Origin: a virus
Direction: 5' to 3' (one strand)
Virus record (IMG/VR): IMGVR_UViG_3300044949_001773
Location: 1-64,000 of that record
Length of the DNA: 64,000 nucleotides
How positions within the stretch are numbered: position 1 is the stretch's first letter; the number at the start of each line of letters is the position of its first letter. This document shows, piece by piece, positions 9,200-50,282 of this stretch. Under the pieces are notes generated by a model. That model made no database searches and was not told where the DNA came from. It saw only the letters and a program-made list of their open reading frames with translations. The translations under genes were made by a program, and so were the position numbers.

Positions 9200-9697
9200 A
9201 TGAAGACATATTCGGAGTTTATTTTAGAAGCTGAAATTAAGTGGAATACCGCAAGATTGGGGGGAAGTGGTAAAAGTCCAGCAGATACGGCTAAGCAAAA
9301 ATTGACCAATGTATCAAAACAAATGACAGCTAGAGGCACTACTCCTCAACAAATGGTTAATATTGCTGGTAGGATCAAAAGAATGAAAGCTGGCATTGAT
9401 AAAGCTGATGAAAAGTTCAAAACAAAAGATCCAAGACCAGAAACTAGAGCAACTACTGCTCAACGAACTGGTAGAATGAGAGTCAATACCGGATATGCTT
9501 CTAAACCAGCAGACACTAGAGGAAGTACTGGGAGTCTTTCTGGAATTGCGTCTCCAGCAGGTGAGGGAAGTGGTAGTAGAGTTGCTGGAAGATATGGTGA
9601 TCTTAGAAAAGGTTCCTCAAATAATATTGGATCGACTCAAATTAATACTGGAAGAGGGTATACTGGAAGAAAATTTGGAAGGAGTGGTAATTTATAA
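9200..9697 (+). CDS. Predicted capsid-targeted internal protein
   Basis: A 165-residue basic, Gly/Ser/Arg-rich protein. The N-terminus MKTYSEFILE-A closely resembles the capsid-targeting peptide of T4 internal proteins and contains an I-x-E/A site matching the known gp21 protease consensus (L/I-x-E). The rest is low complexity with many basic residues (KFKTKDPRPETRATTAQRTG), suited to packing with DNA. Transcribed from a perfect late promoter. Function inside the head is inferred. Confidence 0.75.
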   Translation: MKTYSEFILEAEIKWNTARLGGSGKSPADTAKQKLTNVSKQMTARGTTPQQMVNIAGRIKRMKAGIDKADEKFKTKDPRPETRATTAQRTGRMRVNTGYASKPADTRGSTGSLSGIASPAGEGSGSRVAGRYGDLRKGSSNNIGSTQINTGRGYTGRKFGRSGNL

Positions 9698-11142: not shown

Positions 11143-11577
11143 ATGCCTAGAAAATATAGTAAAATACCAAAGGGAAAGGTTCAATCTTTTTTAGTATCTC
11201 AAAGAGAAAAATTAGAGAAACAAAAAGAAGAAAAAACTAGAATTGAAATTATAAAAGAAAGGATAAAATTTCTAACTAATCCGGAAGATATAATGGTGGA
11301 AATCATTGATGTTTTAAAGGATGTTGAAATAATTCCAAATGTCGGTGATTATTATACCTTTATATACAATGCCAAGACACCAAATATAGTATATGATCAG
11401 CATCCATTAATAGCAACATTCTCTATTCATGAATGGGGATTTTCTGGGTTTAATTTTCACTGGAATAAAATGAGAAATTATACATGGCAAGAAGTTGCTG
11501 GAAATCTTCATGTAGTAAATAATGATGAAATAATTGAAATGAGAAATATTGATTATGCTAAATTTTTGAGGAAATGA
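11143..11577 (+). CDS. Conserved cyanophage protein, probably structural
   Basis: 144 residues, with a charged N-terminal helix (residues 15-50) and an aromatic C-terminal domain (GDYYTFIYNAKTPNIVYDQH, then HEWGFSGFNFHWNKMRNYTW). AGGAG lies 8 bp before the ATG. It sits among late virion genes. I recognise the aromatic core as recurrent in T4-like cyanophages, but no function is known to me. Confidence 0.75.
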   Translation: MPRKYSKIPKGKVQSFLVSQREKLEKQKEEKTRIEIIKERIKFLTNPEDIMVEIIDVLKDVEIIPNVGDYYTFIYNAKTPNIVYDQHPLIATFSIHEWGFSGFNFHWNKMRNYTWQEVAGNLHVVNNDEIIEMRNIDYAKFLRK

Positions 11578-11611: not shown

Positions 11612-12814
11612 ATGAAAAAATTCTCAATCTTTTTAAAAGAAGCATCATTATCTCAAGCATCTATTAAGGCCAAGCAGATGGGTCTTAAAGCAGATGGGCA
11701 TGGTGGATGGTACAATGCTCAGGGAGAATTTGTTGCGAAAACGATTGGGGGAGAGTTAAAATTTTATACCAAAGGACAAAAAGTTGGTGAAAAGGATGCT
11801 CCAAATGCTCGCAAACCGGTTGAAGCCGGTGCTCAAAAACAAGCGGCTGTTGTTCAGCAACCAACTTCAAAAAAAGAAACTCAAAAAACATCAAGAAAAC
11901 TGACAGTAGTTTTTGGAAAATTTAATCCTCCTTCAAAAGACCATAAGAAGATATTTGATTTTGCTAAAACGAAATCAGTGGGATCTGATTTTAAAATTTA
12001 TCCATCAAGATCTCAGGACCCAAAAGCAAATCCTATGGACCCTGATACTAAAATTAAATATATGAAAAAAATGTTCCCAGAGTATTCTGATTATATTATT
12101 AATGACGAAGAAACTGGAACTATTTTTGATGTTTTACAGTCTGCAGAAGCTGATGGTTATGGGCAAGTTTTGATTGTAGTTGGATCAGATAGAGTTGCTG
12201 AATTTAGATCGTTAGCAATTAAACATAATGGAAGTCTTTATAATTTTGATGATATTCAAGTGATTCCTGGAAGTGAAAAAGATATTGATTCAAACCGACC
12301 ATCTGAAAGTATGTCTGCTAAGATGCGTCAATCCGCATCAAAAGATGATTTTGCTACTTTTAAAACGGGTGTAACTAAAGAATTAACAGATAAGGACAAA
12401 GAGCAGTTGTATAAACTTGTCCGTAAAAATATGTCAGAGTCTTATGAATTATGGGAAATATCTCCAAAGTCTGATTATAGAAATTTAAGAGAAAACTATA
12501 TTAAAGAGCGTATATTTAAACTTGGATCAATTGTTGAAAATGTAAATACTGGCCTTATTGGCAAGATTATTCGTAGAGGAACAAATTATTTAATCTGTGT
12601 AACGGAAGATAACATTATGTTCAAATCTTGGATTACTGATGTTGTAGAAAAAAAACAATTTACAAATATTTCTGGTGTTTCTTCGGATCAAAGAAAGGTT
12701 GGAACAACATCACTTACTAAGTATGCTATGAAAATGGCCGGTGTTAATAGTATTAGAAATTTTATAAATAAGTATAAAGTAATAGACAGACATCATACTA
12801 ATGACGAAGTATAA
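11612..12814 (+). CDS. Capsid-targeted nucleotidyltransferase-like protein
   Basis: 400 residues. The N-terminus MKKFSIFLKE-A resembles the T4 capsid-targeting peptide with an L-x-E/A cleavage site. Residues about 95-270 form a cytidylyltransferase-like domain: TVVFGKFNPPSKDHKKIFDF (a HIGH-type motif with D-H), QVLIVVGSDRVAEF, and SMSAKMRQSASKDDF (like the IS-x-T-x-x-R motif of NadR/NadM enzymes). A C-terminal barrel follows (GSIVENVNTGLIGKIIRRGT). It may carry AMP or CMP transfer activity into the new host with the DNA. The domain call is firm; substrate and packaging are inferred. Confidence 0.75.
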   Translation: MKKFSIFLKEASLSQASIKAKQMGLKADGHGGWYNAQGEFVAKTIGGELKFYTKGQKVGEKDAPNARKPVEAGAQKQAAVVQQPTSKKETQKTSRKLTVVFGKFNPPSKDHKKIFDFAKTKSVGSDFKIYPSRSQDPKANPMDPDTKIKYMKKMFPEYSDYIINDEETGTIFDVLQSAEADGYGQVLIVVGSDRVAEFRSLAIKHNGSLYNFDDIQVIPGSEKDIDSNRPSESMSAKMRQSASKDDFATFKTGVTKELTDKDKEQLYKLVRKNMSESYELWEISPKSDYRNLRENYIKERIFKLGSIVENVNTGLIGKIIRRGTNYLICVTEDNIMFKSWITDVVEKKQFTNISGVSSDQRKVGTTSLTKYAMKMAGVNSIRNFINKYKVIDRHHTNDEV

Positions 12815-42771: not shown

Positions 42772-43107
42772 ATGAAATCTTATACTCAATTTATTTCGGA
42801 AAGTGTAAATATATCTGGAAATGCTTCTGTTGGTACTATCATTGTAAATGGACCATCAGAACAAGATGTTTCCCCAATCGGAGAGCAATTTTGTGCCGAT
42901 TTTGTTTGGGAAGGAAACATTTATCGGGTCAAATTTAACTCAGATTCTAATAGAATTCCCACAAGAGAAGAATTGTCTGAGCAGATTCAAGGACAATATC
43001 CTGGAGCAATAGTACATAACATTTATCCATTTATAGAAACTAACAGTCGCTATAAAATGGAAGATATAAAAAGATATCACCCATCAAAACTAGAGTGGAT
43101 TAACTGA
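42772..43107 (+). CDS. Predicted capsid-targeted protein, 111 residues
   Basis: N-terminus MKSYTQFISE-S resembles the T4 capsid-targeting peptide with an I-x-E cleavage site. The remainder contains FCADFVWEGNIYRVKFNSDS and RIPTREELSEQIQGQYPGAI, a small mixed fold. Late promoter in front. Role in the virion unknown. Confidence 0.65.
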   Translation: MKSYTQFISESVNISGNASVGTIIVNGPSEQDVSPIGEQFCADFVWEGNIYRVKFNSDSNRIPTREELSEQIQGQYPGAIVHNIYPFIETNSRYKMEDIKRYHPSKLEWIN

Positions 43108-49937: not shown

Positions 49938-50282
49938 ATGAAGACATTTAACCAATTTATATTAGAATCTAAGTCTAGAAATTATCAACACTCTGGGGAT
50001 GATTCATATAGGTCAATGCATGATCCAGAAAGTGGAGTGACATTTAATAGTTTCAAAGGGGATAATAATACTCATCATGTTTCATTTGATTCTGATGAAA
50101 CTAAAGATCCAAAAACAAGAAGAAGAAATGCTTTAAGAGCAAGAGAAATGGGAAAAGAATTTATTAAACAGCACCCAAAAGGATCTACTATAGAAGTCAG
50201 TCCTAATAGTGAAAAATTGAGGAAAATTTATGTCAAGCATGGATTTTCTGATACTCGTCCTTTCATGAGATTACAGAGATAA
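49938..50282 (+). CDS. Capsid-targeted GNAT-like small protein
   Basis: 114 residues. N-terminus MKTFNQFILE-S matches the capsid-targeting peptide pattern with an I-x-E site. The C-terminal half, AREMGKEFIKQHPKGSTIEV followed by NSEKLRKIYVKHGF, resembles the end of acetyltransferase (GNAT) domains, where N...A..LY...GF is conserved. The full acetyl-CoA site is not evident, so activity is uncertain. Confidence 0.65.
   Translation: MKTFNQFILESKSRNYQHSGDDSYRSMHDPESGVTFNSFKGDNNTHHVSFDSDETKDPKTRRRNALRAREMGKEFIKQHPKGSTIEVSPNSEKLRKIYVKHGFSDTRPFMRLQR

Follow-up and report, generated by a model that had tools for sequence, protein, structure and literature searches.

The window analysed here, a stretch of 64,000 nucleotides, is part of a 131.8 kb IMG/VR viral contig and carries a marine cyanophage gene for a T4-GC190-type nucleotidyltransferase. 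The borders of the domains of its product follow from conservation in 65 relatives and from an AlphaFold model. The features discussed below, all of them on the plus strand, are:

9200..9697, plus strand: small protein with the same type of leader (MKTYSEFILEA), upstream of the nucleotidyltransferase gene; weak match to the PHROG 'internal head protein'
11143..11577, plus strand: upstream neighbour, gp2-like 'DNA end protector' (PHROG 429, E 1e-18)
11612..12814, plus strand: T4-GC190-type virion nucleotidyltransferase gene, assigned by PHROG 395 profile and homologues (ATG at 11612; 400 amino acids plus stop)
11612..11641, plus strand: T4-type capsid-targeting leader MKKFSIFLKE (residues 1–10), assigned by family conservation and T4 IPIII mutagenesis
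11645..11785, plus strand: GHG module (residues 12–58), also present in virion kinases and in S-CREM2 gp12 / PHROG 3561
11786..11893, plus strand: variable linker (residues 59–94), of low confidence (pLDDT 30–60 over residues 50–90)
11894..12445, plus strand: HIGH-type nucleotidyltransferase domain (residues 95–278; pLDDT near 90 for most of the domain)
11912..11944, plus strand: motif I, FGKFNPPSKDH, in place of the family consensus FGRFNPPTTGH (Asp for Gly110; His111 retained)
12002..12052, plus strand: PSRSQDPKANPMDPDTK, with the invariant R133, N140-P141 and K147
12176..12193, plus strand: VVGSDR motif (residues 189–194)
12311..12328, plus strand: degenerate ISxTxxR-type motif MSAKMR (SASKxR in the family; R239 kept, Ser234 and Ser236 replaced)
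12473..12649, plus strand: C-terminal SH3/KOW-like beta domain (about residues 288–346), followed by a short tail

Elsewhere in the window, a cluster of ten tRNA genes, two of them for tRNA-Ile(TAT), lies between 23386 and 27930.

Judged by homology, the open reading frame is a member of the T4-GC190 / PHROG 395 family. It matches the profile of PHROG 395 ('cytidyltransferase') with an E-value of 1e-80, and homologues occur in 533 phage records, almost all from T4-like cyanophages; in 379 of these records at least 80% of the protein is covered, as expected of full-length homology. The closest homologue, ORF91 of Synechococcus phage S-SCSM1 (QFG06348), is 52% identical. The Pfam family CTP_transf_like scores 19.2 bits against the protein, just below its cut-off of 21, and 21.1 bits, just above it, in a six-frame search. 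T4-GC190, under the name 'cytitidyltransferase', belongs to a set of 25 cyanophage core genes defined over 16 genomes (PMC3037559), and a literature search found no paper joining that name with cyanophage. The three strings on which an earlier note had based its reading of an injected nucleotidyltransferase, GKFNPPSKDHKKIF (from residue 102), VVGSDR (189–194) and SAKMRQ (235–240), are all present, and the profile match, the 533 records and the predicted nucleotidyltransferase fold argue against their being there by chance. The same note had placed the enzyme directly after the leader, which does not hold: the 45-residue GHG module and the variable linker separate the two. The SH3/KOW-like domain at the other end of the protein is a small gene of its own (GC534) in Syn1 and S-PM2. 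These PHROG 4808 / T4-GC534 proteins (S-PM2 p144 and Syn1_162), which correspond to the SH3/KOW-like domain of the GC190 family, have been deposited as 'ribonucleotide reductase alpha subunit' or 'NrdB', names that look wrong.

The first ten residues of the protein resemble the capsid-targeting sequence of the T4 internal protein IPIII. In IPIII, the first ten residues suffice for packaging, with residues 4 and 7 mainly involved in targeting and residues 8 and 10 in processing (PMC9026906). The window leader agrees with IPIII at these four positions, holding large hydrophobic residues at 4 and 7, a hydrophobic residue at 8 and Glu at 10, and it shares with IPIII its length and the predicted cut after Glu10, whereas the mature proteins are unrelated; packaging of the window protein is predicted from its leader and from the virions of relatives. 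Among 100 non-redundant relatives, the same positions are almost fixed (F4 in 95%, F7 in 99%, L, I or F at 8 in 100%, and E10 in 99%; Phe or Leu occupies position 4 in 99–100%), while positions 3, 5, 6 and 9 are variable. By analogy with T4, a protease of the gp21 type is predicted to cleave after E10, so that the mature protein would start at A11. Such a protease was found in S-SCSM1, P-SSM2 and Syn9; the window contig, which is incomplete, gave no match to gp21, gp23 or the head-gene cluster. The leader pattern opens 4 of the 157 open reading frames of the whole contig, against 0.0025 expected from composition, and chance occurrence was rejected. Two further small proteins of the window have T4-type capsid-targeting starts, MKSYTQFISES (42772–43107, PHROG 1742) and MKTFNQFILES (49938–50282). 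A literature search for capsid targeting in cyanophages returned only a review on T4.

Several relatives of the protein have been detected in virions, namely T4-GC190 itself in S-SM1 (PMC3037559) and its homologues in S-SCSM1 (PMC9602691), S-SZBM1 (PMC9146016) and S-CREM2 (PMC10665884). The S-SM1 protein carries the leader; the S-PM2 homologue, which is fused to DUF6267 and leaderless, was not detected in virions (PMC3037559). As an outside test of the leader as a rule, two phages with published virion lists, S-CREM2 and S-SCSM1, were scanned. Five coding sequences of S-CREM2 open with the leader: gp6 (a SAM hydrolase), gp13 and gp136 (both hypotheticals), gp14 (a kinase) and gp154 (the cytidylyltransferase). 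All five are virion proteins, compared with 52 of 219 proteins detected by mass spectrometry (P = 6.5e-4), and the result holds without gp154 (4/4, P about 0.003). In S-SCSM1, the leader is carried by the NMNAT, which was detected in virions, and by ORF30, MKTFKQFMSESVNISG, a small protein similar to the two last-named ones of the window, with a looser leader, that is not among the detected proteins. The SAM hydrolase gp6 (locus L428, 3837–5081; leader MKDFDSFLEE) could counter restriction at DNA entry.

The authors of two of these proteomic studies pointed out that virion detection could reflect carry-over (PMC9602691, PMC10665884), and a cytoplasmic late enzyme, whose likeness to leader-bearing proteins and presence in virions were coincidence or carry-over, would fit that caution. 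Such an enzyme would not account for the position-specific conservation of the leader in the family, the presence of all five S-CREM2 leader proteins in virions, or the contrast between S-SM1 and S-PM2, and we consider this reading highly improbable. The window protein is instead very probably packaged by means of its T4-type leader, and that part of the earlier note is strongly supported by the match to the key residues of IPIII and the homologues found in virions. Its delivery into the host, for which the likeness to T4 Alt and the T4 internal proteins argues, seems likely.

The GHG module next to the leader recurs in other proteins of cluster C cyanophages (profile E-values between 6e-20 and 6e-6 for a search size of 10,000). 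The S-CREM2 kinase gp14 has two copies, as do the kinases of S-N03 and S-H34, S-CRM01 g128 and g130 have a single one, and the module is also present in the family of S-CREM2 gp12, S-H34 gp182 and S-N03 (PHROG 3561); loci of cyanophage kinases with the module and of S-CREM2 gp12 are L422:2560–4827, L425:612–2636, L423:2449–4509, L424:160–2625 and L428:7704–10313. In several of these proteins the module is preceded by a leader-like segment, and gp12 and gp14 of S-CREM2 were detected in virions by mass spectrometry. The latter, an APH-like kinase, combines the leader VKRFDAFLTE with two GHG modules, joined to a kinase where the window protein has a nucleotidyltransferase. S-CREM2 gp12, a large protein, was deposited as Cas9-like; since it gave no Pfam or PDB sequence match, the name nuclease is avoided for it. 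Records of the Synechococcus phage ACG-2014f, of about 133–141 kb, hold two GHG-module genes close together, one the nucleotidyltransferase and the other a hypothetical, a possible duplication. Together, the leader and the GHG module are read here as a putative delivery cassette.

Structure prediction bears out the nucleotidyltransferase fold that the earlier note expected. The model of the protein contains the Rossmann-like fold of NadD, PPAT and NadM, and its catalytic domain is, as modelled, a HIGH-type nucleotidyltransferase. VIA-align Z-scores over about 150–160 residues are nevertheless tied (PPAT 13.5, NadD 13.4, NadM 12.6). The protein has no NCBIfam family at E-values up to 1, the curated NMNAT cut-off not being reached. 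Searches of PDB sequences gave no match with the single sequence, and only marginal NMNAT matches with a profile (E 0.87 and above). Owing to the tie and to the lack of an NCBIfam match, the substrate is not readable from fold or sequence, and a call made from the fold alone was rejected. The catalytic domain shares with NadD, NadM and NadR the fold and the order of the motifs, but it is only about 10–15% identical to them and two of its motifs are degenerate.

That the protein is a fully active NMN or NaMN adenylyltransferase, injected to raise host NAD at once, was the suggestion of the earlier note, although it was not new, since two papers of 2022–2023 had proposed that the virion brings in an NMNAT that acts on host NAD (PMC9602691, PMC10665884). 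Besides this published annotation, the nearest Foldseek matches, which are to NadD (E 1e-4), the resemblance of GRFNPxTxGH to NadM and NadR, and the hhalign comparison with E. coli NadD, CoaD and NadR, in which NadR is best over the N-terminal motif only, all point in that direction, although the hhalign comparison did not decide between the substrates. Against it stand the tied Z-scores, the missing NCBIfam match and the loss of Gly110 and of Ser234/Ser236 in the window copy, so that a role in NMN/NAD metabolism or in nucleotidylating a host target is not established, and a fully active injected NMNAT is distinctly unlikely. Family members with intact motifs would most likely transfer an adenylyl group to a small phosphorylated compound, for which NMN or NaMN is one candidate.

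The active site of the window copy departs from that of its family. Of the three NadM/NadR-like key motifs named in the earlier note, the strings are there, but two of them are degenerate: the (H/T)xGH motif reads SKDH, with His kept and Gly changed to Asp, and the ISxTxxR-type motif, SASKxR in the family, reads MSAKMR, with R239 and K237 kept and Ser234/Ser236 shifted or lost. The family consensus runs FGRFNPPTTGH ... GxDR ... SASKxR, and leaderless homologues of the Syn1 type hold FGRFQPPTTGH ... GSDR ... ISGTKMR, all intact. S-SCSM1 ORF91, annotated as 'NMNAT, virion protein', shares with the window protein the full-length architecture of leader, GHG module, nucleotidyltransferase and C-terminal domain, and differs from it in keeping TVGH and SASKMR.

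Erosion of this kind is found in other members of the family. Of 95 non-redundant leader-bearing rows, 12 have lost Gly110. These losses amount to five changes on a tree from which the motif columns had been left out, at least four of them forced by supported branches, and the window copy belongs to a supported clade made up of seven eroded rows. Among nucleotidyltransferase columns conserved in intact rows, the eroded rows deviate at 23–24%; the corresponding figures are 0% for the leader, 0.6% for the GHG module, 4.6% for the SH3/KOW-like domain and 1.4% for the tail. In 12/12 eroded rows the identity of the nucleotidyltransferase to intact rows falls below the expectation from the C-terminal domain. 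When the columns of the ligand motifs were compared with the remaining conserved columns by permutation, the difference did not reach significance (p = 0.09), because the relaxation spans the whole nucleotidyltransferase domain and is not limited to the motifs. A linked loss of Gly110 and the SASK motif gave three changes in the same direction, none in the opposite and one without change, too few independent pairs for significance. Erosion thus appears, from these alignments, to have arisen at least four times and to be confined to the catalytic domain, while the leader and the flanking domains are conserved.

The eroded domain remains under purifying selection (dN/dS about 0.1–0.3), and H111, R133, K147, R194 and R239 are all retained in the window copy; both observations argue against a decaying gene. 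The window copy would therefore be a pseudo-enzyme or else an enzyme whose chemistry has changed. For the same reasons, activity on a changed substrate is possible. NAD synthesis by this copy is doubtful. No second nucleotidyltransferase was found in the incomplete window contig. Catalytic erosion with retention of the leader and flanks would also suit a structural or scaffolding head protein with a borrowed fold that never acts in the host, and in S-SZBM1 virions the abundance of the homologue is low, like that of the prohead core and protease (0.26 versus 0.19–0.30, last column of Table 1; PMC9146016). This purely structural role is improbable, given the complete and strongly conserved active site of most family members and the existence of leaderless stand-alone homologues.

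A further proposition arises from the genes that accompany intact copies, which commonly adjoin DUF6267. This domain (PF19782, T4-GC71; locus L259, 4001–5200, Syn1_160 and S-CAM9 gp150) lies directly upstream of the nucleotidyltransferase gene in Syn9, S-RIM2, P-SSM4, S-CAM9, P-RSM6, S-SM1 and Syn1; the two are fused in PHROG 455 and partly so in S-PM2. In S-PM2 p141/p142 (locus L084, 6755–8534), DUF6267 appears split over two open reading frames, the second of them fused to the nucleotidyltransferase. The DUF6267 profile holds invariant KWDG, EG and K/R motifs. Foldseek alone did not identify its model (pLDDT 86), while VIA re-alignment gave the Naegleria RNA ligase as best match (Z 8.9 over 184 residues), followed by REL1 and T4 Rnl2, so the modelled fold resembles that of RNA ligases. 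No paper on DUF6267 was found in a literature search. Stretches resembling PD-(D/E)XK are seen by eye a little upstream of the nucleotidyltransferase in three loci (L083:7121–7798, L085:5297–6796 and L252:2914–3972), and S-SCSM1 ORF90 (PHROG 1462), from such a PD-(D/E)XK-like neighbourhood, is a virion protein.

The nucleotidyltransferase could accordingly be the catalytic partner of DUF6267 in nucleic-acid repair or end modification, for example by resupplying or using an adenylylated intermediate, and its site would decay where DUF6267 has moved or been lost. The adjacency or fusion of the two, the match to RNA ligases with the invariant KWDG, and the finding that DUF6267 is adjacent in none of the 18 eroded loci whose upstream sequence extends far enough, but in 237 intact loci, are in keeping with this partnership; that contrast is a lead only, given that the loci were gathered by DUF6267 searches, which biases the sample, and that the count ignores phylogeny. 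No DUF6267 was found in the incomplete window contig. Moreover, most leader-bearing relatives of the window protein have intact motifs without an adjacent DUF6267, and S-SCSM1 keeps a diverged DUF6267 elsewhere. We regard the partnership as unlikely, although it retains some weight.

The explanation that we favour, and consider probable as a whole, is that of a virion-cargo protein of a T4-like cyanophage, in which a T4-type leader serves packaging and an eroded nucleotidyltransferase is kept for binding or delivery. Residues 1–10 would bind the prohead core, a gp21-type prohead protease would clip the protein after Glu10, and the mature protein would remain enclosed in the head together with the DNA and would reach the cyanobacterium at infection, as T4 Alt and the internal proteins do. 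The cargo would be made up of three parts, the GHG module common to other virion enzymes, the HIGH-type nucleotidyltransferase and the SH3/KOW-like domain. Because its active site is eroded, catalysis by the window copy is most likely weak, altered or absent. T4 Alt, a packaged and injected ADP-ribosyltransferase, offers a working analogy as a head-packaged enzyme with an N-terminal propeptide, which in Alt is 7 residues long (PMC9026906), but its fold and chemistry are different. The broader proposal, that cyanophages load unrelated proteins (the nucleotidyltransferase, the APH-like kinase and PHROG 3561) through a transferable cassette of leader and GHG module, and that the delivered nucleotidyltransferase is a pseudo-enzyme kept for binding in several lineages, including that of the window, is put forward tentatively, at slightly less than an even chance.

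New in the present analysis are the test of the leader rule against proteomics, the shared GHG module and the repeated erosion of the active site. T4-GC190 is a core gene of T4-like cyanophages that has been seen in virions for 15 years with no role assigned. A recognisable leader provides a sequence rule for which proteins these cyanophages carry into the host, by which published virion lists can be split into cargo and carry-over, and it nominates further cargo candidates, such as the SAM hydrolase, the kinases and small unknown proteins. Finally, because the active site has been lost repeatedly while the leader was kept, the family lends itself to a clean comparison of catalysis and binding as the mode of action of the delivered protein.
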